A stretch of DNA of 64,000 bases from Clostridia bacterium (GTDB lineage: Bacteria; Bacillota; Clostridia; Christensenellales; Borkfalkiaceae). A program made the translations under genes and the position numbers. This document shows, piece by piece, positions 12,678 to 60,544 of the stretch (its first letter is position 1; the number at the start of each line of letters is the position of its first letter). Location of the stretch: contig JAFQEV010000020.1 in the NCBI GenBank assembly GCA_017398825.1, forward strand, positions 1 to 64,000, in the 5' to 3' direction. The notes under the pieces were generated by a model. The model did no database searches, was not told where the DNA came from, and saw only the letters and a list, made by a program, of their open reading frames with translations.

Positions 12678-12715
12678 AATCTTACTCCTTTATCTTTTGG
12701 TAGATATATTATAAA

Positions 12716-12760
12716 TCGCATAATATACGATTGTTAAGTATAAAATCAACTATTGTGCGA
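12716..12760. promoter_or_regulatory. Candidate operator between the divergent pair
   Basis: TCGCATAAT at 12716-12724 faces ATTGTGCGA at 12752-12760 as an inverted repeat (8 of 9 matching), in the gap between the zinc-ribbon gene and the HTH gene. A likely binding site for the HTH protein. Confidence 0.45.
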
Positions 12761-12788
12761 TAATTTAATATATAAAGGAGTGTTTGAT

Positions 12789-13001: not shown

Positions 13002-13013
13002 AATCATCTACAA

Positions 13014-13050
13014 CACATTAAAAACCGCCCATAAGGGCGGTTTTTTTATA
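13014..13050. terminator. Terminator, copy 2 of the 37-bp direct repeat
   Basis: Same sequence as 11737-11773, here between the convergent HTH and SLOG genes. Confidence 0.9.
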
Positions 13051-14187: not shown

Positions 14188-14205
14188 ACGTTTATTGTAA
14201 CACAA

Positions 14206-14542
14206 ATTTATAAACTTTTCAATTTTTTATAAACGTTATTTTTTCAACATTGTTTATAACTTTGTTTATAATTTAAATTTTTAATTTAACTTTCAAAAAA
14301 TCGTTGATTTTTGTAGTATTATTATATATAATATATATGTTAATTATATAAGAGCGCCTGTTTATAAATTTTAAATCTTTCAATATAAAACAAAGTTTAT
14401 CAACTTTTTATTAACTTTCAGTTTTTTTTAAAATTTCTTTATTTTATAAGGTTTTTTTAATTTTTAAATTTTTTTATAAACATATTAACGTTGCTTACTA
14501 TTACTACTATTTTATATCTAAAATAAAGGAGATAATAATCAT
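14206..14542. other. oriC: Candidate chromosomal origin (oriC), AT-rich gap between rsmG and dnaN
   Basis: Very AT-rich, no gene. It holds four copies of TGTTTATAA or its complement TTATAAACA (14251-14259, 14263-14271, 14360-14368, complement at 14474-14482), each one mismatch from the DnaA-box consensus TTATNCACA, plus relatives at 14208, 14227 and 14398 (TTATCAACT). Position beside dnaN, divergent flanking genes and parS sites 8 kb away support an origin. dnaA itself is absent. Promoters for rsmG and dnaN must also lie here. Confidence 0.6.
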
Positions 14543-18595: not shown

Positions 18596-18623
18596 AGCGA
18601 GCCTTATGGCTCGCTGTTTTTTT
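18596..18623 (+). terminator. Terminator after khpB
   Basis: AGCGAGCC ttat GGCTCGCT followed by a T run. The ATG inside its loop (18606) opens the MATE frame but is not a credible start. Confidence 0.85.
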
Positions 18624-18632
18624 ATCATTATT

Positions 18633-35983: not shown

Positions 35984-36001
35984 TTGTTAATTTTTTAACA
36001 A
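35984..36001. promoter_or_regulatory. Rex operator, perfect palindrome
   Basis: TTGTTAATTTTTTAACAA matches the Rex consensus TTGTTAA-N4-TTAACAA exactly. It sits 20 bp before the start codon of the malate/lactate dehydrogenase gene, downstream of a TATAAT (35913-35918). rex is in this window. Confidence 0.88.
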
Positions 36002-36021: not shown

Positions 36022-36969
36022 ATGAAGAGAAAAATCACAATTATCGGTGCAGGCGCGGTAGGTTCGTCAATCGGTTATCTTTTAGTGGCGCAGGGAACTG
36101 CATCTGAGGTAGTGTTTATTGACGTTAATAACGAGAAGGCTCTCGGCGAGGCGATGGATATTTATCAGGCAACCCCGTTTTTAAATCCCGCTATCGTTAG
36201 GGCAGGCGGTTATGAAGACGCTAAGGGTTCGGATATCGTTATAATCACTTCCGGTGTTGCGAGAAAGCCTGGTCAAACGAGAATTGACCTTGCTCAAATC
36301 AACGTAAACATCATAAAGAGCATTGCTCCTCAAATCTCGGCGGTTTGCCCCGATTCGTTATACATTATCGTAGCTAATCCCGTTGACGTATTGACTTATG
36401 CGTTCCACAAGGCGACCAACATTCCTGCAAACAGGATTATCGGTTCAGGCACGAGCTTGGATACTGCAAGGCTTAGAACTCGCCTTTCTGAAATTTACAA
36501 GGTATCTCCCATGCAGGTAGATGCGGACGTTTTGGGCGAGCATGGCGACACGTCGTTCGTTCCCTGGTCTAAGGTAAAAATCGCAGGCGTTAATATCGAC
36601 GAGTATGCAGACGTTATCACTAATCCCGAGTTAAAGGTGGAGCCTTACGATAAAGAGGAAGTTGCCGAGTACATTAGAAAGTCCGGCGGAATTATCATTT
36701 CGAGAAAGGGTGCAACTTACAACGGCGTTGCCGCAGCGGTTGCTTACATTTGCAAGTGCTTATATTCGGGCGTTGATACCGTAGTTTGCGTATCCGTTTT
36801 AATGAAGGGCGAATACGGAATTGAAGACGTTTGCATTTCTATTCCCGCAGTTTTGGGTACGAGCGGTATAAAGACCACTCTCACTCCCACCTTGACTAAG
36901 GAAGAAACTGAAAAGCTCGTAGCATCTGCTAACGCTATGAAAGCGGTTATCAATCAAGTAGAAGTTTAA
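36022..36969 (+). CDS. mdh/ldh: L-malate/L-lactate dehydrogenase family protein
   Basis: 315 residues. NAD-binding GAGAVGSSIGYL, catalytic Arg loop ARKPGQTRIDL, NPVDVLTY, and active-site His in GEHGDTSFVPWS. At the specificity site (Gln102 in Bacillus LDH, within NQKPG) it has Arg, as malate dehydrogenases do; but RKGATYNG keeps the LDH-like Thr near position 246. Family certain, substrate not. The neighbouring fumarase and fumarate reductase favour oxaloacetate/malate; the Rex site fits either fermentation role. RBS GAGAGGA. Possibly co-transcribed with fumC across a repeat-filled 515-bp gap. Confidence 0.85.
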   Translation: MKRKITIIGAGAVGSSIGYLLVAQGTASEVVFIDVNNEKALGEAMDIYQATPFLNPAIVRAGGYEDAKGSDIVIITSGVARKPGQTRIDLAQINVNIIKSIAPQISAVCPDSLYIIVANPVDVLTYAFHKATNIPANRIIGSGTSLDTARLRTRLSEIYKVSPMQVDADVLGEHGDTSFVPWSKVKIAGVNIDEYADVITNPELKVEPYDKEEVAEYIRKSGGIIISRKGATYNGVAAAVAYICKCLYSGVDTVVCVSVLMKGEYGIEDVCISIPAVLGTSGIKTTLTPTLTKEETEKLVASANAMKAVINQVEV

Positions 36970-37110
36970 TCCGTTATAAACGTCGCAACACTGCGTTTCT
37001 ACTTAGCCGATAGACTTCGTTGACCAACAAGGTCTAACTTAGCCTATCGTCTTCGTGAGCCTTGTCTTGCTCGTTTCTAACGTCTTAAACTAATGGCGTT
37101 ACTGCAAAGC
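36967..37110. repeat. Stop-codon-abutting repeat element, copy A1
   Basis: Begins at the mdh/ldh stop codon (TAATCCGTTATAAACG). Core hairpin CGATAG … GACC aacaa GGTC … CTATCG (37008-37049), then TCTTCGTGAGCCTTG and TTTCTAACGTCTTAAACT. Related elements follow frdA, glyA and the second nagB-like gene. Confidence 0.8.
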
Positions 37111-37111
37111 C

Positions 37112-37201
37112 GTTGCATTTACGATGACCAAAAAGGTCTATCGTAATCGCCCCGTCTTTGCGAGCCTCGCCTAACTCGTTTCTAACGTCTTAAACTGATG
37201 G
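37112..37201. repeat. 90-bp direct repeat, copy A2
   Basis: Identical base for base to 37262-37351. Contains hairpin TTTACGATGACC / GGTCTATCGTAA and the TCTAACGTCTTAAACT tail. Member of the same element family; closest to the copy after glyA. Confidence 0.92.
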
Positions 37202-37261
37202 TGTTGAGCAAGATAGATGAGCGTTTCTAACGTCTTAAACTAATGGCGTTGAAACAAGGGT

Positions 37262-37351
37262 GTTGCATTTACGATGACCAAAAAGGTCTATCGTAATCGC
37301 CCCGTCTTTGCGAGCCTCGCCTAACTCGTTTCTAACGTCTTAAACTGATGG
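37262..37351. repeat. 90-bp direct repeat, copy A3
   Basis: Second identical copy, 150 bp from the first. An extra partial tail (TTTCTAACGTCTTAAACT) lies between them at about 37223-37241. Confidence 0.92.
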
Positions 37352-37406
37352 CGTTGAAACAAGGCTTTGGCGTTCATTTACGTTTAACGTTAGCGATCGA
37401 AAGAGC

Positions 37407-37484: not shown

Positions 37485-38849
37485 ATGGAATACCGTATTG
37501 AAAAAGATACTATGGGCGAAATGCAAGTGCCTGCCGATAGGTACTGGGCTGCTCAAACTCAAAGAAGTTATCAAAATTTCCGCATAGGCGGAGAGGTTAT
37601 GCCTCGTGAAATCACTCACGCTTTCGGCATACTCAAAAAGGCGGCTGCTTACGCTAACAACCGCCTCGGCAAGATTGACAATGAAAAACTCACCGCAATC
37701 TCTCAGGCGTGTGACGAGGTTATCTCGGGTAGCTTGAACGACCATTTCCCTTTGGTTGTTTGGCAGACTGGCTCGGGTACTCAGTCCAACATGAACGCCA
37801 ACGAAGTTATCGCTAACCGCGGAAACGAGATTGCAGGCAAAAAACTCCTTCACCCCAACGACGATATAAATAAGAGCCAGTCGAGCAACGATACTTTCCC
37901 AACGGCTATGCACATTGCTGCGGTTATCGCTATCGAGGATAAGCTTTTCCCTGAAATCGACGCGTTGATTGATGTATTCAAGCGTTTAGAAAAGGAAAAC
38001 GAGGGTATCGTTAAGAGTGGTAGAACTCACCTTCAAGACGCTGTGCCCGTAAGTTTTTCTCAAGAGATAAGCGGTTGGAGAAACATGCTTGAAAAGAGTA
38101 GGGCAATGCTTGAGCTTTCTCTTCCCGGTCTTAAAGAGCTTGCGCTCGGTGGTACTGCGGTAGGTACGGGCTTGAACGCTCCCAAGGGCTTTGACGTAGC
38201 GGTTGCCGAAGAGGTTTCTAATCTTACGGGCAAGACTTTCGTTACGGCAGGCAATAAGTTCCACGCACTCACCGCTAAAGACGAAATCGTGTTTGCACAC
38301 GGCGCGCTCAAGGCGCTCGCTGCGGACCTTATGAAGATTGCAAACGACGTTAGATGGTTATCGAGCGGTCCTCGTTGCGGTCTTGGTGAAATATTTATTC
38401 CCGAAAACGAACCCGGCTCGTCCATAATGCCGGGCAAGGTTAACCCAACTCAATGCGAGTCTTTAACGATGGTTGCAGTTCAAGTAATGGGTAACGACGC
38501 TGCAGTTGGATTTGCCGCATCTCAAGGCAATTTCGAGCTCAACGTATTCATGCCCGTTATCATCTACAACTTCTTGCAATCGGCAAGGCTTTTGGCAGAC
38601 GGCATTCGCTCGTTCAACAAGAACTGTGCGTCTGGCATAAGGGCAAATGCAGAGAAGATGAAGTTCAACCTTTACAATTCGCTTATGCTCGTTACGGCGC
38701 TCAACCCCTACATCGGTTACGAGAACGCCGCTAAAACGGCTAAGCTTGCTCACAAGGAAAACATCAGCTTAAAGGAGGCTTGCGTTTCGCTCGGTTTCCT
38801 CTCCGCTGAAGAATTTGACAAGGTGTTCAAACCTGAACAGATGGTGTAA
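37485..38849 (+). CDS. fumC: Class II fumarate hydratase
   Basis: 454 residues from ATG 37485 with AAGGAG 7 nt upstream (frame open from 37458). FumC signatures: TGSGTQSNMNANEVI, KSQSSNDTFPTAMH, GRTHLQDAVPV and the superfamily loop GSSIMPGKVNPTQCE. Interconverts malate and fumarate without an iron-sulfur cluster. Two nt before hdrB, so first gene of the Hdr-Flx-fumarate reductase operon, where it would supply fumarate. Confidence 0.97.
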   Translation: MEYRIEKDTMGEMQVPADRYWAAQTQRSYQNFRIGGEVMPREITHAFGILKKAAAYANNRLGKIDNEKLTAISQACDEVISGSLNDHFPLVVWQTGSGTQSNMNANEVIANRGNEIAGKKLLHPNDDINKSQSSNDTFPTAMHIAAVIAIEDKLFPEIDALIDVFKRLEKENEGIVKSGRTHLQDAVPVSFSQEISGWRNMLEKSRAMLELSLPGLKELALGGTAVGTGLNAPKGFDVAVAEEVSNLTGKTFVTAGNKFHALTAKDEIVFAHGALKALAADLMKIANDVRWLSSGPRCGLGEIFIPENEPGSSIMPGKVNPTQCESLTMVAVQVMGNDAAVGFAASQGNFELNVFMPVIIYNFLQSARLLADGIRSFNKNCASGIRANAEKMKFNLYNSLMLVTALNPYIGYENAAKTAKLAHKENISLKEACVSLGFLSAEEFDKVFKPEQMV

Positions 38850-38851: not shown

Positions 38852-39634
38852 ATGAAATTTTCTTATTATCCGGGTTGTACCCTTAAAACTAAAGCAAAGC
38901 AATTAGACTTATATGGAAGAAAGTGCCTTGAAAAATTAGGCGTTGATTTCGAAGAGATTAAAGAGTGGCAATGCTGTGGCGCGGTTTACCCCGTTTCTAA
39001 GGACGAGGTTGCAACTAAGCTTTCCGCAGTTAGAACTCTCGCAAACGCAAAGGCTGAGGGTGGAAAACTCCTCACTTTATGCTCGGCTTGCCATCACGTT
39101 TTAAAAAGAGTTAACGACGATATGAAAAACGACGATAATATTCGCCTTAAGGCAAACAACTACCTCGCTCTCGACGAGGAGTACGCCGGCGAGACTGACG
39201 TTATTCACTATCTCGAACTCTTGAGGGACTACGTTGGTTTTGATAAAATCAAGGCGGCGGTAGTTAACCCCCTCAAAAATCAAAAGATAGGCGCATACTA
39301 CGGCTGTTTGCTCCTTCGCCCGTCTGAAACGTTGGCGTTTGACAATCCTGAAAATCCGAAGATTATCGAAGATTTCATCACGGCAATCGGCGCAACGCCC
39401 GTAACGTACGCATTTAGGAACGAGTGCTGTGGAGCATACGTTTCAACTACCAGCAAGGACTTAGCGGTTAAGAAGAGCACCAAGGTTACCGATTCTGCTA
39501 AAAACGCAGGCGCTGAAAAGCTCGTTACCGCGTGCCCCCTTTGTATGTATAACCTTACCGAAAACGGCAATGGAGAAGTTCCCGTATATTACTTTACCGA
39601 ACTTCTTGCCGAGGCTCTCGGAGTAAAGGAGTAA
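38852..39634 (+). CDS. hdrB: HdrB-like subunit (two CCG domains)
   Basis: 260 residues with two complete cysteine-rich CCG motifs: C9, C41-C42, C77, C80, and C152, C192-C193, C228, C231. In methanogen heterodisulfide reductase these hold two non-cubane [4Fe-4S] clusters where disulfide is reduced. Cytosolic. Here the final acceptor is uncertain: it may hand electrons to the downstream fumarate reductase or to an unknown disulfide. In the methanogen thiol:fumarate reductase a similar CCG part is fused to the FrdB-like subunit. Two nt after fumC. Confidence 0.93.
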   Translation: MKFSYYPGCTLKTKAKQLDLYGRKCLEKLGVDFEEIKEWQCCGAVYPVSKDEVATKLSAVRTLANAKAEGGKLLTLCSACHHVLKRVNDDMKNDDNIRLKANNYLALDEEYAGETDVIHYLELLRDYVGFDKIKAAVVNPLKNQKIGAYYGCLLLRPSETLAFDNPENPKIIEDFITAIGATPVTYAFRNECCGAYVSTTSKDLAVKKSTKVTDSAKNAGAEKLVTACPLCMYNLTENGNGEVPVYYFTELLAEALGVKE

Positions 39635-39637
39635 GAT

Positions 39638-40024
39638 ATGGATAGAAAAGAACAGGCAAAGCTTATCAAAGAAAGAAGTGGAACTGACGTTAGAAAGTGT
39701 ATGAAATGCGGTAAGTGCTCGGGTAGATGCCCAGCGTATGCCGAAATGGATATCAAGCCCCATCAGTTCGTATCATATATAGAAAAGGGCGAAGTTGAAA
39801 AGCTCCTCGAGAGCAAGTCCTTATATACCTGCCTTAGCTGTTTTGCATGCGTAGAGAGATGTCCCCGTGGCGTAGCTCCTGCAAACGTGATAGAGGCAGT
39901 TCGCCAAGAGGTTGTAAGAGCTCAGGGCGGAAACAAGGTTCAGGCGGAAAAAATCCCCGAAACTATCAACGAGGCAATTCCCCAACAACTTCTCGTAAGT
40001 ATGTTTAGAAAATTCAACAAGTAA
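39638..40024 (+). CDS. hdrC: HdrC-like iron-sulfur subunit
   Basis: 128 residues with two [4Fe-4S] motifs, CMKCGKCSGRCP and CLSCFACVERCP, flanking a helical linker: the HdrC pattern. Shuttles electrons between HdrA and HdrB. AAGGAG ribosome site; 3 nt after hdrB. Confidence 0.94.
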   Translation: MDRKEQAKLIKERSGTDVRKCMKCGKCSGRCPAYAEMDIKPHQFVSYIEKGEVEKLLESKSLYTCLSCFACVERCPRGVAPANVIEAVRQEVVRAQGGNKVQAEKIPETINEAIPQQLLVSMFRKFNK

Positions 40025-40035
40025 GGGAGTATATA

Positions 40036-42027
40036 ATGCAAAAGATTGGTGTATTTGTGTGTTGGTGCGGTAGTAATATCGCGGCAACCGTAGACGTAAA
40101 GAAAGTTGCGGACGTATTGAGGTTAGAGCCCGGCGTAGTTATTTCCGAAACGTATCAATATATGTGTTCTGAAAACGGCCAAGCGCTCATTCGCAACGCT
40201 ATCAAAGAAAACGGCTTAACGGGTATCGTAGTATGCTCGTGTTCTCCGAGAATGCACGAGGCAACGTTTAGAAAGACTGCCGAGAGTGCAGGGCTCAATC
40301 CCTACATGGTAGAAATCGCGAATATTCGTGAACAATGTTCTTGGATACACAAGGATATGGACGAGGCTACCGAAAAGGCTATAGTTCTCGGCAGAAGTGC
40401 TATCGCAAAACTTAAGCTCAACGCTCCGCTCACCTCGGGTGAAAGCGCAGTAGTTAAAAGAGCACTCGTTATCGGCGGTGGTATTGCAGGTATTCAGTCG
40501 GCTCTCGATATTGCAGAGGCAGGCTACGAGGTAGATATCGTAGAAAGCTCCGCAACTATCGGTGGTAACATGGCAAAGCTCGATAAGACTTTCCCAACTC
40601 TTGACTGTGCTGCTTGTATCTTAACACCCAAGATGGTTGACTGTGCTCAAAACGAGAATATCGACATCATGACCTTTAGTGAAATCGAAAGCGTTAAAGG
40701 TTTCGTTGGTAACTTTAAGGTTCAAATTAGAAGAAAGGCGCGTTTCGTTGACGAGAAGAAATGTACGGGTTGTGGCGTATGTATGCAAAAGTGCCCGTCC
40801 AAAAAGGGTAAAAACGAATTCAACATGGGTCTTAACAACCGCCCGGCAATCTACATTCCGTTTGCTCAGGCTATTCCCAACGTTGCAATTATCGACCCCG
40901 AGCAATGCTTAAAGCTCAAAAACGGCAAGTGCGGTCTTTGCGCAATGCAATGTCAGGTAAACGCAATCGACTACACTCAGAAAGACGAGATTATCGAGAG
41001 GGAATACGGTGCAATCGTAGTTGCAACCGGGTACAAGCCCATCTCGCTTGAAAACTTTAACGAATACGGCTACGATACTTATAAAGACGTAGTGACCTCG
41101 TTAGAGCTTGAAAGACTTATGAACGCGGCAGGTCCTTCGGACGGTCACTTAGTTCGTCCCTCCGACCACAAAGAGCCCAAGGTTATCACCTTTATTCAAT
41201 GCGTAGGCTCGAGAGACACCTCGGGTTGCGGTAAACCCTACTGCAGTAAGATTTGCTGTATGTACACTGCAAAGCACGCAATGCTCATTCGCGAAAAATA
41301 TCCCGATACTGAAGTTCACGTATTCTATATCGACGTGAGAACTCCTGGTAAGAACTATGACGAGTTCTTCCGTAGAGCAGTAGAGCAGTACGGCGTTGAC
41401 TACATAAAGGGCATGGTAGGCAAGGTGTACGAGGAAAACGGCAAGCTTATGGTTCAAGGTTCAGACCTTATCAACAACGAGCAAGTAGTAATTCCCTCAG
41501 ACCTCGTAGTACTTGCTGCGGCAATCGAGCCTAACCCCTCGGTTAGAAAGATTGCAACTATGGTAACTGCAAGTATTGACACTAATAACTTCTTAACCGA
41601 GGCTCACGCAAAGCTCCGCCCCGTAGAAAGCCCCACGGCAGGCATATTCTTATCGGGCGTTTGCCAAGGACCTAAGGATATTCCCGAAACGGTTTCTCAG
41701 GCAAGTGCTTGTGCGGCAAAGGTTGTAGGTTTATTATCTAAAGACAAGCTTAAGTGCAACGCTTGCGTTGCCCACAGCGACGAAACGCTTTGTACGGGTT
41801 GTTCGGTATGTGCGAACGTTTGCCCCTACGGCGCAATCACTTACGTTGACAAGGAATTCAGAATCGGCGGTGGCAAGACCGAAACGAGAAGAGTTGCATC
41901 GGTTAACGAGGCGGTATGTCAGGGTTGCGGTGCTTGTACCGTTACTTGTCCTTCTGGCGCTATGGACCTCAAGGGCTTTAGCAACAAACAGATTATGGCG
42001 GAGGTAGACGCGATATGCAAGAGATGA
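40036..42027 (+). CDS. hdrA: HdrA-like flavoprotein (candidate electron-bifurcating subunit)
   Basis: 663 residues, the full HdrA plan: N-terminal iron-sulfur domain (VCWCGSNIAATVDV, CSCSPRMHE), FAD-binding GGGIAGIQSALDIAEAGY, inserted ferredoxin motifs (CTGCGVCMQKCP, CGLCAMQC), CIQ-type thioredoxin-reductase-like core, and C-terminal 2x[4Fe-4S] (CTGCSVCANVCP, CQGCGACTVTCP). In methanogens the HdrA FAD bifurcates electrons between ferredoxin and heterodisulfide. Cytosolic core of the complex here. Overlaps flxD by 13 nt. Confidence 0.95.
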   Translation: MQKIGVFVCWCGSNIAATVDVKKVADVLRLEPGVVISETYQYMCSENGQALIRNAIKENGLTGIVVCSCSPRMHEATFRKTAESAGLNPYMVEIANIREQCSWIHKDMDEATEKAIVLGRSAIAKLKLNAPLTSGESAVVKRALVIGGGIAGIQSALDIAEAGYEVDIVESSATIGGNMAKLDKTFPTLDCAACILTPKMVDCAQNENIDIMTFSEIESVKGFVGNFKVQIRRKARFVDEKKCTGCGVCMQKCPSKKGKNEFNMGLNNRPAIYIPFAQAIPNVAIIDPEQCLKLKNGKCGLCAMQCQVNAIDYTQKDEIIEREYGAIVVATGYKPISLENFNEYGYDTYKDVVTSLELERLMNAAGPSDGHLVRPSDHKEPKVITFIQCVGSRDTSGCGKPYCSKICCMYTAKHAMLIREKYPDTEVHVFYIDVRTPGKNYDEFFRRAVEQYGVDYIKGMVGKVYEENGKLMVQGSDLINNEQVVIPSDLVVLAAAIEPNPSVRKIATMVTASIDTNNFLTEAHAKLRPVESPTAGIFLSGVCQGPKDIPETVSQASACAAKVVGLLSKDKLKCNACVAHSDETLCTGCSVCANVCPYGAITYVDKEFRIGGGKTETRRVASVNEAVCQGCGACTVTCPSGAMDLKGFSNKQIMAEVDAICKR

Positions 42028-42455
42028 ATAACGAAAAAAGACCTTTAATCGTTGCGTTCTGCTGTAACTGGTGCAGTTACGCAGGTGCGGACCTTGCAGG
42101 TTCTTCGAGGCTTTCCTATCCTGCTGACGTAAAGATTATAAGAGTTCCCTGTTCGTGCAGGGTTAATCCTATGTTTATATTAAAGGCTTTCCAAAGGGGA
42201 GCGGACGGCGTAATCATTTGCGGTTGTCACCCCGGCGACTGCCACTATACTACTGGTAACTACTATGCAAGAAGAAGAATGAGTTTACTTTTCAGTATGC
42301 TCGATTATCTCGGCATTGAGAGAGAAAGAACGCGCGTTGAGTGGGTATCCGCTGCAGAGGGCGCAAAGTTCTCCGCCGTTATGAACGATTTTGCAAGCAA
42401 GGTTGCCGCTCTCGGTGAAAACAAGAGGTTGGAGGATTTGAGATGCAAAGAATAG
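42015..42455 (+). CDS. flxD: MvhD/FlxD-like [2Fe-2S] electron-transfer subunit
   Basis: 146 residues with the MvhD pattern: FCCNWCSYAGADLAG, VPCSCRVNP, ICGCHPGDCHY. In Hdr complexes it links HdrA to the electron-input module (hydrogenase, formate dehydrogenase or FlxABC). Start at 42015 or 42024. Overlaps hdrA and flxC, so translationally coupled on both sides. Confidence 0.93.
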   Translation: MQEMNNEKRPLIVAFCCNWCSYAGADLAGSSRLSYPADVKIIRVPCSCRVNPMFILKAFQRGADGVIICGCHPGDCHYTTGNYYARRRMSLLFSMLDYLGIERERTRVEWVSAAEGAKFSAVMNDFASKVAALGENKRLEDLRCKE

Positions 42456-43405
42456 AAACTGCTATGATTGAAAAGGCAAAAGCACTCTTAAGTTCTGGCG
42501 AGGTTACTCGCGTTCTCGGCTGGAAGAAGGGCGAGCTCGGCTATGACGTTGAGCCTTGCGTATTCAAGAGCGAGGAAAGCTTAAAAGATTTTTGCTATAA
42601 CGTATTCTGTGGCGCAAACCTTTCAAAATATCTCGTTGAAGAGAGCAAGAAAGAGGGCAAGATTTTAGTATTCTTAAAGCCCTGTGATAGCTACAGTTTT
42701 AACCAGCTCATTAAAGAGCACAGAATAAATAAAGAAAACGTTTACACCGTCGGCGTAGAGTGTCAAGGAAAGGTTGACCCCTACAAGCTTAAGGAAAACG
42801 GAATTGAAATGGTAGATAGCGCCGTTGAAACGGTTGATACCGTTACGGTAAAAGGCAAGGAATTCAAGAAGGAAGAGATAATACTCGGCAAGTGCTTAAC
42901 TTGCACTAAAAAGCCCTTATCTTATGACGATATCATTTCGTTCAACGAAAAGCGCGAGCCGGTATTAGACCGCTTTGAAACCGTTAAAAAGTTAGAGGCT
43001 ATGACGGCTGACGAAAGATACGCTTTCTGGAAAGACCAGCTTTCTAACTGTATCCGTTGTAACGCGTGCAGAAACGTGTGCCCCGCTTGTACTTGTACAA
43101 AGTGTGTGTTCGATAACGATAACTCTGGCATTGCAAGCAAGGCAAACAGCGATAGCTTTGAAGAGAAGTTATTCCACATTATAAGAGCCTTCCACGTAGC
43201 AGGTCGTTGTACCGACTGTGGCGAGTGCTCGAGAGTTTGCCCTCAGCACATTCCCCTTCACCTTTTAAACAGAAAGTTTATCAGTGATATCGATAGGCTT
43301 TACGGTGAATATCAAGCTGGTGAGGATACCGATTCCAAAGGTCCTCTTACCAACTACACTACGGGTGACGTTGACCCGAGCGACGTTTTCGGAGGTAATA
43401 ACTGA
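42443..43405 (+). CDS. flxC: FlxC-like iron-sulfur protein (FrhB/FdhB-type)
   Basis: 320 residues. The N-terminal part resembles coenzyme F420-reducing hydrogenase/formate dehydrogenase beta-like proteins (VFLKPCDSYSFNQLIKEH, LGKCLTC); the C-terminal part has two [4Fe-4S] motifs, CIRCNACRNVCP and CTDCGECSRVCP. It fits the third iron-sulfur subunit of the FlxABCD input module. GGAGG ribosome site; overlaps flxB by the ATGA pattern. Confidence 0.85.
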   Translation: MQRIETAMIEKAKALLSSGEVTRVLGWKKGELGYDVEPCVFKSEESLKDFCYNVFCGANLSKYLVEESKKEGKILVFLKPCDSYSFNQLIKEHRINKENVYTVGVECQGKVDPYKLKENGIEMVDSAVETVDTVTVKGKEFKKEEIILGKCLTCTKKPLSYDDIISFNEKREPVLDRFETVKKLEAMTADERYAFWKDQLSNCIRCNACRNVCPACTCTKCVFDNDNSGIASKANSDSFEEKLFHIIRAFHVAGRCTDCGECSRVCPQHIPLHLLNRKFISDIDRLYGEYQAGEDTDSKGPLTNYTTGDVDPSDVFGGNN

Positions 43406-44430
43406 TGAAAAAGATTGCTTATAAAAATTTAGACTTATTATATAAGGAAATAGCAGGCGCTCAAGAGCTTTATCTTCCCGTAAAGGTTGCTAAAGCCACC
43501 AACTTTAAAAAGTATGAGGACGGCGTTGAGGTAGATATCAAATCTCTCCAAACCGTAAAGTCTGCAAAAGATTTATTCTTCCCCCAAAGCGAAGATATGA
43601 TGGAGTTCAAAACTTCGGGTAAAAACATCGAGATTATCGATGCGAGAAAGACCCCCGCTCCCTTCGTTTTATTCGGCGTTCGCGGTTGTGACCTTAAGAG
43701 CTTTGAAATTTTAGATAGAGTTTTCCTCGCTGAGCCCGTTGACACTATGTACAAGGCAAAGAGGGAGGCTGTAACCGTTGTAACTCTTGCTTGTAACAAC
43801 CCTGAAAGCTCGTGCTTTTGTAAAGTATTCGGCGTAGACGCGTCTAATCCTAAGGGTGACGTTCAAGCGACTATCGTAGGCGACGAGATGTTCTTCGAGC
43901 CTCTTACCGAAAAGGGTAGAGCGCTCCTTGACAGCCTTAAGTGCCTTGAAGACGGTGACGCTACTGCCGTTGAGGGAGAAAAGAAGGCGATTGCCGAAAA
44001 AATTGACGCGTTGCCCTTTGTAAACCTCGATCTTTCTGAGTTCAAGGGCGAAAACCTTATGAAACTCTTTGATAGACCGGAGTGGGAAGACTTGTCAAAG
44101 GCGTGCCTCGGCTGTGGTACTTGTACCTTTGTTTGCCCGACTTGTCAATGTTTTGATATAAGAGATTTCCAAACTAACGCAGGCGTTAAGAGATTTAGGT
44201 GCTGGGACTCGTGCATGTATTCAGAGTTTACCAAGATGGCTGCTGAAAACCCGAGAAAGAACCAGATGCAAAGATATCGCCAAAGATTTATGCACAAGCT
44301 TTGCTACTTCCCCTCTAATAACGACGGTGAGTACGGTTGTGTAGGTTGCGGAAGATGCGTTAAGAAATGCCCGCAATCGTTAAATATCGTAAAAGTAATT
44401 AAAAAACTCGGAGGTAAAAACAATGACTAA
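43405..44430 (+). CDS. flxB: FlxB-like 4Fe-4S protein (sulfhydrogenase beta/AsrA-type)
   Basis: 341 residues: an N-terminal domain (FVLFGVRGCDLKSFEILDRVF, then SCFCKVFGVDAS) and two C-terminal [4Fe-4S] motifs (CLGCGTCTFVCPTCQC, CVGCGRCVKKCP), as in sulfhydrogenase beta and anaerobic sulfite reductase A subunits. Works with FlxA to carry electrons from NAD(P)H. Overlaps flxA by 8 nt. Confidence 0.9.
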   Translation: MKKIAYKNLDLLYKEIAGAQELYLPVKVAKATNFKKYEDGVEVDIKSLQTVKSAKDLFFPQSEDMMEFKTSGKNIEIIDARKTPAPFVLFGVRGCDLKSFEILDRVFLAEPVDTMYKAKREAVTVVTLACNNPESSCFCKVFGVDASNPKGDVQATIVGDEMFFEPLTEKGRALLDSLKCLEDGDATAVEGEKKAIAEKIDALPFVNLDLSEFKGENLMKLFDRPEWEDLSKACLGCGTCTFVCPTCQCFDIRDFQTNAGVKRFRCWDSCMYSEFTKMAAENPRKNQMQRYRQRFMHKLCYFPSNNDGEYGCVGCGRCVKKCPQSLNIVKVIKKLGGKNND

Positions 44431-45250
44431 TGAAGCGCTTATTCCCGTAATCGGCGTCATTACGGATATCAGGAAAGACACCCCCGACGTTAAGACCTTT
44501 AGAGTAGTTACTCCCGACGGCAAGAAGGCTTTCGAGCACATGCCCGGTCAATGCGCAATGCTTTCAATCCCCGGTATCGGCGAGGCGATGTTCTCGATAA
44601 CCTCTTCTCCAACGAACACCGAGTTTATGGAGTTTTCCATTAAAAAATGCGGTTGCGTAACCTCTTGGTTGCACGCTTGCGAAGTAGGTCAACAGGTAAC
44701 TATCCGCGGACCTTACGGCAACGGTTTCCCCGTTACTAAAGATTTCAAGGGCAAGAACCTTCTCTTTATCGCAGGTGGTATAGGTTTAGCACCTCTTCGT
44801 TCGGTTATCAACTACGTTAGGGCGAACAGGGCTGACTACGGCACGGTAGATATCGTTTACGGCTCTCGTTCGATGGACGACCTCGTTGACTTTAAGGAAA
44901 TCGAGGAGGAGTGGAAAAACGAAAAAGACTTTAACGTTTACTTGACGATTGACCGTCCTCAAGAGGGCTGGAACGGCCACGTAGGCTTTGTTCCTGCATA
45001 CGTTAAAGAGGTAAATATCCCAACTGATAGAACGGCTGTTCTTTGCGGTCCGCCGATAATGATTAAGTTCACTCTTCAAGCTCTTTTAGAGCTTGGCTTT
45101 GAGAAAACTCAAGTGTTCACCACTTTAGAGTTTAGAATGAAATGCGGTATCGGTAAATGCGGTCGCTGCAACGTTGGCGATAAATACATTTGTAAAGACG
45201 GTCCTGTATTCCGTATGGACCAACTCGAAGAACTTCCTTCGGAATATTAA
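44423..45250 (+). CDS. flxA: FlxA-like FAD/NAD(P)H-binding subunit
   Basis: 275 residues of the ferredoxin-reductase/PyrK type: FAD part (FEHMPGQCAMLSIPGIGEAMFSI), NAD(P)-binding IAGGIGLAPLRSVINY, CGPPIMIKFT, and a C-terminal [2Fe-2S] site CGIGKCGRCNVGDKYIC. Entry point for NADH (or NADPH) electrons into the Flx-Hdr complex. In Desulfovibrio, FlxABCD-HdrABC is assigned as NADH dehydrogenase/heterodisulfide-type reductase. Confidence 0.92.
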   Translation: MTNEALIPVIGVITDIRKDTPDVKTFRVVTPDGKKAFEHMPGQCAMLSIPGIGEAMFSITSSPTNTEFMEFSIKKCGCVTSWLHACEVGQQVTIRGPYGNGFPVTKDFKGKNLLFIAGGIGLAPLRSVINYVRANRADYGTVDIVYGSRSMDDLVDFKEIEEEWKNEKDFNVYLTIDRPQEGWNGHVGFVPAYVKEVNIPTDRTAVLCGPPIMIKFTLQALLELGFEKTQVFTTLEFRMKCGIGKCGRCNVGDKYICKDGPVFRMDQLEELPSEY

Positions 45251-45273
45251 TTAGGACAATGGAGAAAACGAAT

Positions 45274-45948
45274 ATGGAAAAAATGGTAAACGTTTACTTT
45301 TTCGGTAAAAAATACGAAGTTCCTGCAAGCCTCACCATTATGAAGGCTATGGAATATGCAGGATATCAGCTCGTTCGCGGTTGCGGTTGCCGTAACGGTT
45401 TCTGCGGTGCGTGCGCAACGCTTTACAGAATTCACGGTAAAACCGAACTTAAAACCTGCCTTGCTTGTCAGCAACAGGTAGAAGAGGGTATGTACGTAGC
45501 AACTCTTCCCTTCTTCCCCCTCGTAAAACAGGTTTACGATATTCAAAAGGTTAAACCCACCGAGCAAATTATGATGCAGTTATATCCTGAAATTTACAGC
45601 TGTATCGGCTGTAACGCATGTTCTAAGGCGTGCCCTCAGGAACTTAAGACTATGCAGTACATCGCATACGCTCAACGCGGTGAATACGAAAAGTGTGCTG
45701 AAGAGTCCTTTGACTGTATTATGTGCGGTCTTTGCTCGTCGAGATGCCCTGCAGGTATTTCTCATCCTCAGGTTGCTATCCTTGCAAGAAGACTTTACGG
45801 CAAATACATCGCTCCCGAGTGCAAGCACCTTTTAGACAGGGTTGCCGAGATTAACGAAGGCAAGCACGACGACAGCGTGAACGAAATTATGAACAAACCT
45901 CTCGAAGAGCAAAAAGCGCTCTACAACACGAGAGATATTGAAAAGTAA
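45274..45948 (+). CDS. frdB: Fumarate reductase iron-sulfur subunit, soluble type
   Basis: 224 residues from ATG 45274, which has GGAG 9 nt upstream (alternative ATG 45259). N-terminal [2Fe-2S] domain with C37, C39, C44, C47, C62; then [4Fe-4S] motif C110-x2-C-x2-C-x3-C120P and a second full cubane motif C148-x2-C-x2-C-x3-C158P. E. coli FrdB has a [3Fe-4S] site at the latter; here a fourth Cys makes it cubane, as in thiol:fumarate reductase TfrB or HdrC. No quinone-anchor gene nearby. Confidence 0.88.
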   Translation: MEKMVNVYFFGKKYEVPASLTIMKAMEYAGYQLVRGCGCRNGFCGACATLYRIHGKTELKTCLACQQQVEEGMYVATLPFFPLVKQVYDIQKVKPTEQIMMQLYPEIYSCIGCNACSKACPQELKTMQYIAYAQRGEYEKCAEESFDCIMCGLCSSRCPAGISHPQVAILARRLYGKYIAPECKHLLDRVAEINEGKHDDSVNEIMNKPLEEQKALYNTRDIEK

Positions 45949-45963
45949 TAGGGAGGAACGGAT

Positions 45964-47571
45964 ATGTATTCTTATACTCAAGAACAACTCGATTCAATCA
46001 AAAAGGTAGAGGCTACGAGAGCGGAAAGACTTAAAAACCTCCACGCAAGAATGACCGCTGAAGAAAAGGACGCGGTTTTACATGAGTTCCACCCCGACTA
46101 CATCGAGGGCGCGTACGAAACCTTAAAAGTTGGCCCTAACAAAGGCGATAAGGTTTTACACGAGCTTGCAGACCTTTTGCAAGGCAAGTCTCGTTTAGAC
46201 GCGAAGAAGATTGACCTCAAAAACCCCGATTACGACGTTGACGTTTTAGTTATCGGCGGTGGCGGTGCGGGTTCTTCCGCAGCAATTACCGCTCACGGCA
46301 ACGGCGCAAACGTTATGATTGTTACCAAGCTTAGAATAGGCGACGCTAACTCTATGATGGCGGAGGGCGGTATTCAAGCGGCTGATAAGCCCAACGATAG
46401 CCCCGCTCAGCACTATCTCGATGCGTTTGGTGGCGGTCACTTTGCAGCAAAGCCCTGCTTACTTGAAAAGCTCGTTAAAGAGGCTCCCGACGCTATTCGT
46501 TGGCTTTCCGACCTCGGCGTTATGTTCGATAAGCAAGCAGACGGCGAGATGGTAACCACTCACGGCGGTGGTACGTCGAGAAAGAGAATGCACGCTTGTA
46601 AAGACTACTCGGGCGCAGAGATTATGAGAACTCTTCGTGACGAGGTTTTAAACAGGGGTATTCCCGTTGTTGACTTTACCGCTGCAATCGAAATTATTAA
46701 AGACAGTGAAGGCAAAGCTGCCGGTGCAGTTTTACAAAACATGGAAACGGGCGAAATCTTAGTTGCCAAAGCAAAAACCGTTATTATCGCAACGGGTGGT
46801 GCAGGCAGACTTCACTATCAAGGTTTCCCGACTTCTAACCACTACGGCGCAACGGCTGACGGTTTAGTTCTTGCATATCGTGCAGGTGCAAAGCTTTTAT
46901 ACGCTGATACTTTGCAGTATCACCCGACCGGCGCTGCAGAGCCCACTCAAATTTACGGCGCGCTCGTTACCGAGAAAGTTCGTTCGCTCGGCGCTCAGCT
47001 CGTAAATAAAAACGGTGAGGCTTTCGTATACTCGCTCGAAACGCGTGACGTTACTGCATCTACTATCATTAGAGAATGTAAAGGTCGCGGAAACGGCGTT
47101 AAGACGACTGACGGTGAGGGCGTATGGCTCGATACCCCGATGATTGATATTATCGGCGGTGAGGGCACTATCGAAAAGCGTATTCCCGCAATGATGAGAA
47201 TGTTCGGCAAATACGGTATCGATATTAGAAAAGACCCCATCTTAATTTACCCCACGCTTCACTATCAAAACGGCGGTATCGATATCGATGCTGACGGTCA
47301 GACCACCATGGTTGAAAACTTATACGTAGCAGGCGAGGCTGTTGGAGGTATCCACGGTAGAAATCGTCTTATGGGTAACTCTTTACTTGATATTATCGTA
47401 TTTGGTAGAAACGCTGGTAAGTACGCAAGTGAAAAGTGCAAGAACGTAAAAGTTGGCAAGCTCACCTTATCACACGTTAAAGATTTCAACAACGAGTTAA
47501 AGGCAGCTGGCGTAAATACCGGTAAGGTATCCCCGCAACTTCTTCCTTCTTATAAAAGAGGAGATATGTAA
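45964..47571 (+). CDS. frdA: Fumarate reductase flavoprotein subunit, soluble type
   Basis: 535 residues. FAD motif VIGGGGAGSSAAI (96-108); active-site set of the fumarate reductase/succinate dehydrogenase family all present: H320 (HPTG), T336-E337, R361 (TRDV), H433 (HYQNGG), R468 (NRLMGNS). The His that covalently binds FAD in E. coli FrdA is replaced by N129, so FAD should be non-covalent, as in soluble enzymes. No signal peptide. L-aspartate oxidase is the main alternative, but the FrdB-like partner and fumarase context argue against it. GGGAGGA ribosome site. Confidence 0.88.
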   Translation: MYSYTQEQLDSIKKVEATRAERLKNLHARMTAEEKDAVLHEFHPDYIEGAYETLKVGPNKGDKVLHELADLLQGKSRLDAKKIDLKNPDYDVDVLVIGGGGAGSSAAITAHGNGANVMIVTKLRIGDANSMMAEGGIQAADKPNDSPAQHYLDAFGGGHFAAKPCLLEKLVKEAPDAIRWLSDLGVMFDKQADGEMVTTHGGGTSRKRMHACKDYSGAEIMRTLRDEVLNRGIPVVDFTAAIEIIKDSEGKAAGAVLQNMETGEILVAKAKTVIIATGGAGRLHYQGFPTSNHYGATADGLVLAYRAGAKLLYADTLQYHPTGAAEPTQIYGALVTEKVRSLGAQLVNKNGEAFVYSLETRDVTASTIIRECKGRGNGVKTTDGEGVWLDTPMIDIIGGEGTIEKRIPAMMRMFGKYGIDIRKDPILIYPTLHYQNGGIDIDADGQTTMVENLYVAGEAVGGIHGRNRLMGNSLLDIIVFGRNAGKYASEKCKNVKVGKLTLSHVKDFNNELKAAGVNTGKVSPQLLPSYKRGDM

Positions 47572-47938: not shown

Positions 47939-49339
47939 ATGGAAAATCAAAACAAAAAAAGCCTTAAATGGCTTTGGATATCTATCGCTATCGTGGTAGT
48001 TGCCGCTCTTGTTGCTTGGTGTGTATACAATGCAGTAAAAGATGGGGATATAACGACGGCAATCGAGATTAAGTCAACCCCCGTATTATTTATCTTGATT
48101 TTTGTAATTTGTGCTTTAGGTTACCTCCTCGGTGGTGTTACCATTAAGGGCGTTAACTTAGGAACTGCAGGCGTATTCTTAGTAGCGATACTCTTTGGTT
48201 TCTTATGCACGCTTGACTTTGGCAACGTTCCTATTTTAGGCTCGTTCCACGTTACACACGAAAGCTCTATCGTTTCTACGATGGGTGGACCTATTCAAAA
48301 TTTAGGTCTTATAATGTTCGTTGGCTCAGTTGGCCTTATTGCAGGACCTAATTTCTTCAAGAACCTTAAAAAGAACTTTAAAACTTATATCGTACTTGGA
48401 GCGATAATTATTTTATCGTCTACTACAGTTGCAGTTATATTCTCGGTGATTTTCAATTATGGTTCTGGTTTCTGGGCTGGAATACTCTCCGGAGCGCTTA
48501 CTACTACCCCCGGTTTTTCAGCAGCACAAGAAGCGGTGCTTTCTGAACTTCAATCTATGCCTGAATATGCTGGAATGGCTGTGGAGAAATTAAGAGAACT
48601 TCCCGAGTATGCAATCATTTCCGTAGGTCACGCAATTGCTTATCCCTTTGGCGTAGTAGGCGTTGTTTTATTCGTTCAACTTATGCCTAAGTTCTTAAAG
48701 ACTGATATGGAAAAGGAAAGAGAGCTTTTAAAGATCGGCGCTGAAGAAGAGGTTAAAAACTATGCAGGCTTATTCGAGGTTGAGCCCTTTGGTCTTGTTC
48801 CCATCGCGCTTACAGTAGTAACAGGTCTTTTATTAGGCGCTATTAAAATTCCGTTGTTCGAGGGCTCGGCGTTCAGTTTAGGAACAACGGGTGGCGTACT
48901 CATTATGGGCTTAGTTTTAGGTCACTTTGGCAAAATCGGAAAACTTTCTCTCCAAGTACCCGAAAGCACTTTAAAGCTCTTAAGAGAATTCGGCTTAATG
49001 TTATTCCTCTTAGGCGCTGGTTTTGATGGAGGCGTAAAACTCGTATCTTCTCTTAGTGGTGCTGACGGAGCTGGTAAAATCATTTGGGGTTTTGTTGGCG
49101 GTGCTTGTATGACTATCGCTCCGATGCTTGTTGGTTTCTTCCTTGCAAAATTCGCTATGAAGATGCCTCTTCTCAACACCCTCGGCTCAATTACCGGCGG
49201 TATGACTTCTACCCCCGCGCTTGGAACTTTAATCAACACCGCAAAGACTGAGGACGTTGCGTCCGCTTACGCATCTACCTATCCTATCGCGTTAGTATTA
49301 GTAGTGTTGGCTTGCCAGTTAATGATTACCTTTATATAA
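47939..49339 (+). CDS. Aspartate:alanine exchanger-family transporter (possible succinate exporter)
   Basis: 466 residues, about 10-11 membrane segments in two repeated halves, typical of the AAE family (GGPIQNLGLIMFVGSVGLIAGPNFF, ALTTTPGFSAAQEA; second half LREFGLMLFLLGAGFDGG, GSITGGMTSTPALGTL). The central soluble part is short, with no TrkA-C domains recognised. The family includes the AspT exchanger and Corynebacterium SucE, a succinate exporter. Next to fumarase and fumarate reductase genes, succinate or other C4-dicarboxylate transport is the best inference. AGGAG lies about 15 nt before ATG. Confidence 0.85.
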   Translation: MENQNKKSLKWLWISIAIVVVAALVAWCVYNAVKDGDITTAIEIKSTPVLFILIFVICALGYLLGGVTIKGVNLGTAGVFLVAILFGFLCTLDFGNVPILGSFHVTHESSIVSTMGGPIQNLGLIMFVGSVGLIAGPNFFKNLKKNFKTYIVLGAIIILSSTTVAVIFSVIFNYGSGFWAGILSGALTTTPGFSAAQEAVLSELQSMPEYAGMAVEKLRELPEYAIISVGHAIAYPFGVVGVVLFVQLMPKFLKTDMEKERELLKIGAEEEVKNYAGLFEVEPFGLVPIALTVVTGLLLGAIKIPLFEGSAFSLGTTGGVLIMGLVLGHFGKIGKLSLQVPESTLKLLREFGLMLFLLGAGFDGGVKLVSSLSGADGAGKIIWGFVGGACMTIAPMLVGFFLAKFAMKMPLLNTLGSITGGMTSTPALGTLINTAKTEDVASAYASTYPIALVLVVLACQLMITFI

Positions 49340-50889: not shown

Positions 50890-50925
50890 TTTATGCTTAA
50901 AACAGCAAAATGGAGAAAAATTTTT

Positions 50926-52326
50926 ATGAACAGTCGCGCTAGAAGGATTAAACTTCGCGGATATATGAAAGGAAGAATAGAAAAGGACTTTACTCAAGGT
51001 CCATTACTTAGGCAAATGATTATATTTGCTCTTCCTTTAATCTTTACCAACATTTTACAAATATTATTCAACACCGCTGACGTTATAATTCTTGGCATAT
51101 TAGTCGACAACACGTCAGTTGCCGCCGTTGGTTCAACGGGTTCGCTTATAAACCTTATAACGTCGCTTTTTATAGGCTTATCAGTAGGCGTCAACGTGCT
51201 CTCTTCTAAATATCTTGGCGAACACAACGAAGAAGGCGTTCAAAAAACTATCGGAATGAGCATACTTTTAAGCCTTATTTTCGGTGTTGTTTTAATGGCT
51301 ATAGGCTGGTTTGGCGCGAGGTTTTTCCTTGAGCTTATGAAGAGCGACCCTGCCGTTATCGACCTTTCTGCAAGATACGTTCAAGTTTACTTTTTAGGAA
51401 TTCCGCTCGTTATTCTTTATAACTTCTTATCGGCGATAATGAGGGCGGCGGGAGATAGTAAAAGACCGCTTATCTACCTTTTAATAGGCGGTGTTGCAAA
51501 CGTAGGGCTCAACGTGTTTTTCATAACCGTTTTAAAAATGACGGTAGAGGGCGTTGCCATTGCAACAGTCGTATCTCAAGGAATATCGGCGTTGCTTTGC
51601 TTAATTCAATTATTAAGGGCAAAAGGCGTAGTAAGATTAAAGTTTAAATACGTAAGATTTTATAAAAAAGAACTTTTAGAAATTATTAAAATAGGCGTTC
51701 CCTCTGGAATTCAAGGCTCACTCTTTTCGCTTTCCAACGTATTCATTCAAAAGACCATTAATCTTTGCGGAGAAACGGCAATGTCCGGCTCGGCGTACGC
51801 AGTTCAAATCGAGGGGTACGTTTACGTTGCAATGAACGCGGTATCCGTAGCAATTATGAGTTTCATTAGCCAAAACTACGGCGCTAAAAAGTTTGACCGC
51901 ATATTCAAAACGATAATCTACGGCTTAATCATAACCTCGGTTTTAGGTCTTGTTTTAGGTGTGGCGGGCACGCTACTTTGTAAACCTATCGTAATGGCGA
52001 TATCAGGCGACGCGCAAGTTGTTAAGTATTCGTTTGATAGAATTTTACTCGTTTGCCTCCCGTATTTTATATGCGGTATTATGGAAATTTTCTCTTATAC
52101 TATGCGTGCGCTTGGAAAGAGCACAACGAGTATGATTATATGCCTTTTAGGTTCGTGCGTTTTAAGAATTATTTGGGTAAACGTAATGTTTGCGTTTATT
52201 AAAAGTTACACTTTGATTTTCGTTTCCTATCCTGCAACGTGGATAATAACGTCGCTCGCGCTGTTTATAGTGTTAGTTCCCATGCTCAAAAAGTTAAAAT
52301 CTCAACATCAAGCGCAAGTTGAGTAA
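50926..52326 (+). CDS. MATE family efflux transporter
   Basis: 466 residues from ATG 50926 (GGAG 10 nt upstream; frame open from 50893, alternative ATG 50965). Twelve hydrophobic segments with MATE features (FTQGPLLRQMIIFALPLIFTN, FNTADVIILG, MRAAGDSKRPLIYLLIGG, GVPSGIQGSLFSLSNVFIQ). Cation-coupled export of drugs or metabolites. First of a tandem pair of close paralogues with no other gene between. Confidence 0.9.
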   Translation: MNSRARRIKLRGYMKGRIEKDFTQGPLLRQMIIFALPLIFTNILQILFNTADVIILGILVDNTSVAAVGSTGSLINLITSLFIGLSVGVNVLSSKYLGEHNEEGVQKTIGMSILLSLIFGVVLMAIGWFGARFFLELMKSDPAVIDLSARYVQVYFLGIPLVILYNFLSAIMRAAGDSKRPLIYLLIGGVANVGLNVFFITVLKMTVEGVAIATVVSQGISALLCLIQLLRAKGVVRLKFKYVRFYKKELLEIIKIGVPSGIQGSLFSLSNVFIQKTINLCGETAMSGSAYAVQIEGYVYVAMNAVSVAIMSFISQNYGAKKFDRIFKTIIYGLIITSVLGLVLGVAGTLLCKPIVMAISGDAQVVKYSFDRILLVCLPYFICGIMEIFSYTMRALGKSTTSMIICLLGSCVLRIIWVNVMFAFIKSYTLIFVSYPATWIITSLALFIVLVPMLKKLKSQHQAQVE

Positions 52327-60535: not shown

Positions 60536-60544
60536 GGTATGATT

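Follow-up and report, generated by a model that had tools for sequence, protein, structure and literature searches.

A Clostridia gene run joining HdrABC-FlxABCD to a soluble fumarate reductase: a probable electron-bifurcating NADH:fumarate/ferredoxin complex

A run of nine genes in a 64,000-nucleotide stretch of Clostridia DNA (positions 1 to 64,000 of contig JAFQEV010000020.1, called "the window" below) probably encodes, as the explanation of the run as a whole, a complex HdrABC-FlxABCD-FrdAB that oxidises NADH and divides the electrons between fumarate and ferredoxin. The genes are arranged in the order hdrB-hdrC-hdrA-flxD-flxC-flxB-flxA-frdB-frdA as nine open reading frames (ORFs) on the + strand, between positions 38852 and 47571, with intergenic gaps of -13 to +15 bases.

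Proposed mechanism

The products of the nine genes would form one soluble multi-subunit complex. NADH would be oxidised at FlxA, and the electrons would pass through FlxB, FlxC and FlxD to the flavin of HdrA, where they would be split. The high-potential branch would run from HdrA through HdrC, HdrB and FrdB to FrdA, reducing fumarate to succinate, and the low-potential branch would lead from HdrA to ferredoxin (Fd). The net reaction would be 2 NADH + fumarate + Fd(ox) -> 2 NAD+ + succinate + Fd(red). The complex would thus end a cytosolic route from oxaloacetate to malate by malate dehydrogenase (MDH), to fumarate by FumC and finally to succinate, which a permease may export. In the window's genus the operon would probably be derepressed through the repressor Rex at high NADH. 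If this is true, many Clostridia make succinate by an enzyme that needs neither quinone nor membrane and converts surplus NADH into reduced ferredoxin, fumarate becomes one more acceptor in electron bifurcation of the Hdr type, and the balance of succinate, H2 and reducing power in models of rumen and gut fermentation is altered.

The nine genes and their products

An earlier first-pass annotation of this DNA had described nine contiguous or overlapping genes in the above order. All of the ORFs were found at the positions it gave, and the Pfam and NCBIfam assignments agree with its family names. All seven Flx-Hdr subunits are present in the single run. The product of hdrB (38852-39634) belongs to the CCG family and has two complete CCG motifs, that of hdrC (39638-40024) is a Fer4 [4Fe-4S] dicluster protein, and that of hdrA (40036-42027) is an FAD subunit of the electron-bifurcating type. 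These genes are followed by flxD (42015-42455), of the MvhD/FlpD type (PF02662, E 1.6e-55), flxC (42443-43405), which encodes an Fe-S protein according to Pfam and was named from its position in the run, flxB (43405-44430), for a HydB/AsrA-like Fe-S subunit, and flxA (44423-45250), for the HydG/AsrB/PyrK-like NAD(P)H:FAD:[2Fe-2S] input subunit. The frdB gene (45259-45948) encodes a [2Fe-2S] domain and an HdrC-like [4Fe-4S] dicluster. The last gene, frdA (45964-47571), encodes a FAD_binding_2 protein, the predicted flavoprotein of a soluble fumarate reductase, with an N-terminal extension of about 90 residues. There are no Rfam matches between 35000 and 50000.

No membrane-type hydropathy window occurs in the nine Hdr, Flx and Frd proteins, in agreement with the first-pass statement that a membrane subunit is lacking; the permease encoded downstream does have such windows. 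UbiA, which belongs to quinone synthesis, had no match in nine genomes, six of them of the window's own genus (control 14/14). A membrane quinol:fumarate reductase was rejected on these two grounds. The interval 38852-47571 is correct for the nine genes but not for the extent of the unit, to which the fumarase, MDH and permease genes also belong.

Conservation and distribution

The association of the nine genes was examined at three depths. The near-relative sample consisted of 61 genomes, the window's own and 60 relatives. FrdA was found in 22 of these, the own genome included, as almost full-length matches of 73-100% identity, and all other matches were at most 36% identical. FrdB and FlxA are encoded just upstream of FrdA in 22/22 of these loci. 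A separate search with HdrA gave 24/61 genomes, namely the 22 FrdA carriers and two more, in which frdA is not visible because hdrA runs off the end of the contig (G002 and G022, with contigs of 9000 and 3147 bases). Among the 22 carriers, G008 and G055 likewise have hdrA cut by a contig end, with frdA on a different contig; in the remaining 20 the two genes share one contig.

A scan of a named collection confirmed at least 589 relatives among 592 pattern matches, of which the best 80 were retained. The record titles among the matches listed are mostly those of metagenome-assembled genomes (MAGs) of Clostridia, Oscillospiraceae or Ruminococcus, and the gut of ruminants or chickens is a frequent source. 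Two titles stand apart, one naming Treponema and the other Bacteroidaceae, and these are perhaps misbinned. The best 80 include three that are closely related to the window's genus; their sources are the colon of sheep and of yak and the caecum of water buffalo.

In the class-wide search FrdB was found in 54/391 genomes, the own genome included, and in 36/223 genera, with no listed match between E 3.7e-81 and the limit of 1e-30. Nineteen larger regions, picked from this search for spread and contig size, were joined to the best 80, and a gene of the nine-gene set was counted as present where tblastn gave a match on the same strand. All nine genes are present in 76/76 loci with enough flank, or 73/73 distinct loci after three duplicates were dropped. 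Since the set is kept in every such locus, the association is not due to chance. The first-pass annotation had named a lack of joint conservation of FrdAB and Hdr-Flx as a finding that would speak against it, and this neighbourhood search gave the opposite. Because the loci were collected by way of FrdA or FrdB, they show that Frd accompanies Hdr-Flx; the converse is shown by the HdrA search, within the 61 genomes. The strict linkage of the genes makes the proposal testable, as does the fact that some carrier genomes consist of one or two contigs (G132, G208, G239 and G420).

The most diverged locus, L150, has frdB-frdA first, next to hdrB, so that the order is rearranged with no loss of a gene. 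Its neighbouring genes (415-2121 and 11168-15157) include a succinate CoA-transferase that scores above the cut-off. A TtdAB-type Fe-S dehydratase, for tartrate or fumarate, is encoded beside the operon, and the locus also has an aldehyde:ferredoxin oxidoreductase-like gene, well below the cut-off.

HdrA and the splitting of electrons

HdrA aligns over its length with methanogen HdrA (5odc_A, E 1.5e-198), with the main cluster cysteines in register; the assignment of the aligned cysteines to clusters is our assumption. The FAD motif and both C-terminal ferredoxin motifs of bifurcating HdrA are kept. Across the sampled class HdrA is full length and 55-98% identical, barring copies cut by contig ends. 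The combination of an NADH input module with an Hdr module, as put forward in the first-pass annotation, is supported by the domains of FlxA and the families of the Hdr subunits. NADH, presumably in preference to NADPH, is likely to be the donor by way of Flx-Hdr, and ferredoxin would likely be the low-potential acceptor. An NADH-linked fumarate reductase is very probable. The bifurcating step beyond it, which draws on the homology of HdrA and on the partly mixed physiology of one species, is probable but less secure.

The potential of ferredoxin ranges from -420 to -500 mV. The potentials of fumarate and NADH are +33 mV and -320 mV, respectively (PMC5861303). With these values and that ferredoxin range, the coupled reaction was computed to yield about -49 to -33 kJ/mol. 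In Pseudoclostridium thermosuccinogenes, 85% H2 nearly abolished succinate formation, which was read as fitting ferredoxin-linked fumarate reduction in PMC7282089.

Several observations weigh against the proposed mechanism. Lowering the redox potential of P. thermosuccinogenes cultures with Na2S acted opposite to H2, and when CO2 was limiting the up-regulation of the operon did not reach significance for every subunit (PMC7282089). No biochemical demonstration of ferredoxin reduction by such a complex was found in the open-licence literature searched. Both CCG motifs of HdrB are intact, which is compatible with disulfide chemistry. Neither Rnf nor NiFe hydrogenase was found in the own genus, and the only hydrogenase of the own genome is one monomeric group-B [FeFe] enzyme; the outlet for ferredoxin is therefore uncertain and an "energy-saving" benefit unclear. 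In addition, among the 61 near relatives Rnf is rarer with the operon (6/22) than without it (25/39), so that coupling to Rnf as a general rule is not supported. Citrate synthase shows the same trend (6/22 genomes with the operon, 20/39 without), and both may therefore reflect genome reduction.

An alternative is a non-bifurcating soluble NADH:fumarate reductase, in which Hdr-Flx would be a mere wire and no ferredoxin would be reduced. The transfer of electrons from NADH to fumarate is strongly exergonic and can proceed uncoupled, and the missing Rnf and NiFe hydrogenase in the own genus would fit such an enzyme. However, a plain wire would hardly need an HdrA kept full length throughout the sampled class, with its FAD motif, main cluster cysteines and both C-terminal ferredoxin motifs. 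We regard the non-bifurcating enzyme as unlikely, although it is the best of the alternatives.

Ferredoxin outlets in the own genus

At 92% completeness of the own MAG, any one absence is weak evidence, and repetition across the genus helps. Neither the RnfD family nor citrate synthase had a match in nine own-genus genomes, and no NiFe hydrogenase was found in nine relatives, six of them of the own genus. No frame of the size of a single-chain PFOR occurs among the PF01558 matches of six own-genus genomes, and one such frame occurs in each of three genomes of other families.

There are two PF01558 matches in the own genome. A VorB-type set, with its alpha subunit above the cut-off, is found together with ilvE and an MbcS-like acyl-CoA ligase (below the cut-off) at 4072-10990 of locus L169, and IorAB (above the cut-off) is found with a PaaK-like ligase (below the cut-off) at 3653-7250 of locus L170. 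The position of ferredoxin-dependent oxoacid enzymes beside CoA ligases hints at reductive carboxylation as a use of ferredoxin. It suggests that reduced ferredoxin may be spent on carboxylating branched-chain and aryl acids to amino acids.

FrdB, HdrB and HdrC

By motif, FrdB has the [2Fe-2S] cysteines C44, C49, C52 and C70 and the dicluster cysteines C115, C118, C121, C125 and C153, C156, C159, C163. All are invariant in 26 sequences except C52, which is kept in at least 90%. The two complete CxxCxxCxxxCP motifs are like those of HdrC, and the sequence of E. coli FrdB, which carries a 3Fe-4S cluster, differs here. The FrdB copies of two genomes (G121 and G414) have one in-frame stop each. 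The monomer model of FrdB had low confidence (pLDDT 58.9) and was not used.

The CCG motifs of HdrB are complete (C9, C41, C42, C77, C80 and C152, C192, C193, C228, C231), and we take these cysteines to be ligands from the motif. The top NCBIfam models for HdrB are SdhE of 8-methylmenaquinol:fumarate reductase (144.9 bits) and methanogen HdrB (144.5 bits), which are tied and both below the cut-off; a CCG subunit of this type is therefore known beside fumarate reductases. FrdB (18-94), HdrC (129-220) and HdrB (411-487) match consecutive stretches of the TfrB model, weakly, at 31-45 bits against a cut-off of 385. FrdB and HdrB therefore resemble a split TfrB, and these TfrB and SdhE matches hint that FrdB may be in physical contact with HdrB.

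The same features would suit a two-step route, in which Flx-Hdr reduces a disulfide, of a protein or a small molecule, and FrdAB uses the resulting thiol in the manner of methanogen thiol:fumarate reductase. The intact CCG motifs of HdrB and the piecewise TfrB matches, weak as they are, speak for it. Yet FrdB itself lacks a CCG domain, and a fusion to HdrB was not seen among the 54 class-wide FrdB matches, whose open frames are 225-290 residues long. FrdB must meet HdrB in any case, and a direct wire is simpler, which makes the thiol route improbable.

A more detailed picture of the bifurcating complex may be drawn tentatively, although we would not expect all of it to hold. The HdrC-like dicluster of FrdB would be docked on HdrB in a supercomplex, with fumarate replacing the heterodisulfide as the high-potential acceptor of an HdrA-type enzyme. 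In the window's genus this supercomplex would be a main source of reduced ferredoxin, feeding H2 formation and reductive carboxylation and not ion pumping.

Neighbouring genes and the direction of the reaction

The nine genes are preceded on the + strand by fumC (37485-38849), which encodes a class II fumarase (NCBIfam TIGR00979, 744 bits, cut-off 664.75) and ends 2 bp upstream of hdrB. Its ORF is listed from 37458, the likely start being the ATG at 37485, with a Shine-Dalgarno-like AAGGAG. Class II fumarase, defined as at least 50% identity to the window's FumC, is encoded at 41 of the 54 distinct loci with enough flank and class I fumarase at 9; neither was detected at 4, and no locus has both. 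Before deduplication the counts were 42, 11, 4 and 0 (n = 57), and L150 was left out of them. The class I matches share 55-83% identity with the alpha subunit encoded in locus L151, which NCBIfam identifies as fumarate hydratase above the cut-off. Two unrelated fumarases thus replace each other at the locus, which is the strongest clue that the substrate of the complex is fumarate.

Further upstream, a probable malate dehydrogenase of the LDH-like type is encoded at 36022-36969 on the + strand. NCBIfam labels it an L-LDH. In the alignment its Arg81 is at the position of a Gln in Lactobacillus LDH, and Arg is found at this position in 47/47 aligned homologues from these loci. We take Arg at this position to be the marker of malate specificity. 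An MDH-like gene lies upstream of hdrB in 39/52 distinct loci with enough flank. Downstream of frdA, again on the + strand, a permease of the Asp-Al_Ex family (47939-49339, PF06826) is a possible succinate exporter; SucE1 succinate exporters are members of this family. Such a permease follows frdA within 1.2 kb in 56/77 distinct loci with enough flank.

In principle the reaction of a bifurcating enzyme can be reversed, and oxoacid oxidoreductases of the ferredoxin type (VOR-like and IorAB) are present in the own genome, so the complex might run in reverse and oxidise succinate at the expense of reduced ferredoxin (confurcation). However, the neighbouring genes form a reductive branch from oxaloacetate that often ends in the exporter-like permease, the Rex-type operator described below fits the disposal of NADH, and the published counterpart in P. 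thermosuccinogenes makes succinate (PMC7282089). Reverse running is very improbable, and the bifurcating complex is taken to work towards succinate.

FrdA and its substrate

The catalytic residues H233, T245, E246, R288, H356 and R391 of E. coli FrdA correspond to H320, T336, E337, R361, H433 and R468 of the window's FrdA. All six are kept, and they are invariant in a set of 20 sequences and in one of 26, both including the window's. The same six are present in NadB and therefore do not separate FrdA from NadB. The covalent-FAD residue His45 of E. coli FrdA is replaced by N129, so that the FAD should be non-covalent. NadB E121, presumably the residue of aspartate oxidase that deals with the amino group, is H200 here. 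NadA had no match in the own genome (control 12/14), nor was there a second FrdA/NadB-like gene in it at E 1e-10.

The Pfam domain FAD_binding_2 spans residues 93-474, and the preceding 90 or so residues are largely conserved; Succ_DH_flav_C gave no Pfam match at E 0.001. The best NCBIfam model is TfrA, at 332.5 bits far from the equivalog cut-off of 718. The predicted model of FrdA (pLDDT 74.3, pTM 0.81) matches fumarate reductases, SdhA, flavocytochrome c3, NadB, urocanate reductase and others. Its best matches are fumarate reductases and flavocytochrome c3, the top rows being tied; in VIA-align these have Z about 28 over 379-422 residues with an rmsd of 3.9-5.0, and the first 70 or so residues are barely covered. 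In locus L017 (G047:C46), which is otherwise similar, the FrdA copy has one in-frame TAG stop, which may be a sequencing error or a sign of decay.

The substrate of FrdA is almost certainly fumarate, because the catalytic residues are kept, fumarases are encoded at the locus, and the own genome has neither NadA nor a second FrdA-like gene. The first-pass suggestion of fumarate as the high-potential acceptor is thereby supported by the catalytic residues and the exchangeable fumarases. An L-aspartate oxidase, which the first-pass annotation had named as a finding that would overturn it, or an enzyme for another unsaturated acid, is hardly credible, and the aspartate oxidase was rejected, for although the identity to E. 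coli NadB (31%) is close to that to E. coli FrdA (33%), most catalytic residues are common to both, and the NCBIfam aspartate-oxidase models score high, yet below their cut-offs, the lack of NadA, the His in place of Glu121 and the exchangeable fumarases all stand against it.

Rex-type sites and other features of the window

A Rex-type operator, a perfect match (0 mismatches) to TTGTTAANNNNTTAACAA, is situated at 35984-36001 (no strand assigned), 20 bp before the start codon of mdh. We take TTGTTAANNNNTTAACAA to be the Clostridia-type consensus. The probable regulator, the redox-sensing repressor Rex, is encoded in the window at 30126-30749 on the + strand, not adjacent to the operon (NCBIfam NF003990, 249.8 bits, cut-off 233). 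Sites with one mismatch are found at 30093-30110, just upstream of rex, and at 28936, preceding another gene. In 40 Markov-1 simulations, 0.025 perfect and 0.175 one-mismatch sites were expected per 64 kb. With up to three mismatches allowed, the window has 18 sites against 13.7 expected, which is no excess.

Across 73 loci, sites with at most one mismatch were counted in the 300 bp before mdh, fumC or hdrB. There are 7, in 7 loci, in 51 kb, compared with 3 in 1.3 Mb elsewhere; these three lie at distances of 303, 304 and 569 bases in front of an operon gene. Rex-type sites are thus enriched upstream of these genes, yet they occur in a minority of the loci. Universal control by Rex is not supported, since close sites precede operon genes in 7/73 loci. 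For the window's genus the operator suggests NADH-responsive control of the succinate operon.

The gap between mdh and fumC contains two direct repeats of 136 nt each (37072-37357), which are 94% identical and spaced by 150 nt within a 488-bp stretch. A core of 18 nt occurs four times in the gap and nowhere else in the window. Elsewhere, the window encodes a BspA-type leucine-rich-repeat protein of 867 residues (60539-63142) and MATE efflux proteins, with an adjacent pair of genes at 50893-52326 and 52368-53795 and a third MatE gene at 18606-19985.

Comparison with known systems

The first-pass annotation knew of no described system of this make-up, but one is already in print. PMC7282089 describes a "succinate operon" of P. 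thermosuccinogenes (CDQ83_RS03365-RS03315) with genes for fumarase, Flx-Hdr, fumarate reductase and a putative succinate transporter, and assumes that the fumarate reductase is linked to ferredoxin reduction. Its Flx-Hdr genes have the locus tags RS03360-30, seven at the usual step of five, to which two fumarate reductase genes and one putative transporter gene are added. Compared by gene list, this operon and that of the window agree in gene content, in gene order and in the mechanism proposed; the locus lies outside the best 80 of the at least 589 relatives. The organisms differ in that P. thermosuccinogenes is a thermophile with Rnf, Ech and PFOR, whereas no RnfD-family protein, NiFe hydrogenase or single-chain PFOR was found in the own genome of the window. 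For the ferredoxin-linked fumarate reductase, the paper on P. thermosuccinogenes cites Ramos 2015 and Koendjbiharie and van Kranenburg (2019 preprint, doi 10.20944/preprints201912.0288.v1).

In tubeworm symbionts and Thioflavicoccus mobilis, tfrAB-flxABCD-hdrABC-korABCD clusters were the basis for proposing a Tfr-Flx-Hdr-Kor complex (PMC6315080). Like the window, these clusters have fumarate reductase genes amid Flx-Hdr. Unlike it, they belong to sulfur-oxidising Gammaproteobacteria with reverse TCA autotrophy and include 2-oxoglutarate:ferredoxin oxidoreductase.

FlxABCD-HdrABC of Desulfovibrio vulgaris has the same seven subunits, to which FrdAB is additionally joined in the window. The Flx-Hdr of Desulfovibrio is tied to DsrC. 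Judging by its title, a 2015 paper by Ramos, which the P. thermosuccinogenes paper cites, reportedly ties the D. vulgaris complex to ethanol metabolism, and a 2014 paper by Meyer is said, again from the title, to treat the fermentation of pyruvate by Desulfovibrio alaskensis G20, in which Rnf takes part and fumarate reduction and Hdr-Flox are active together. Methanogen TfrAB has its CCG domain fused in TfrB, whereas that of the window is the separate subunit HdrB; the window further differs from it in the Flx-Hdr input for NADH and in the N-terminal extension of FrdA. The traits of quinol:fumarate reductase and complex II were not found: the nine proteins have no membrane anchor, the nine genomes searched no UbiA for quinone synthesis, and FrdA neither the covalent-FAD His nor a Pfam match to Succ_DH_flav_C.

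The operon of the window is a new, tightly linked and widespread case of a kind of enzyme already proposed in 2019-2020. To the prior proposal it adds a carrier genome that yielded no Rnf, NiFe hydrogenase or single-chain PFOR, the distribution in the class, the unusual architecture of FrdA and FrdB, and the exchangeable fumarases.

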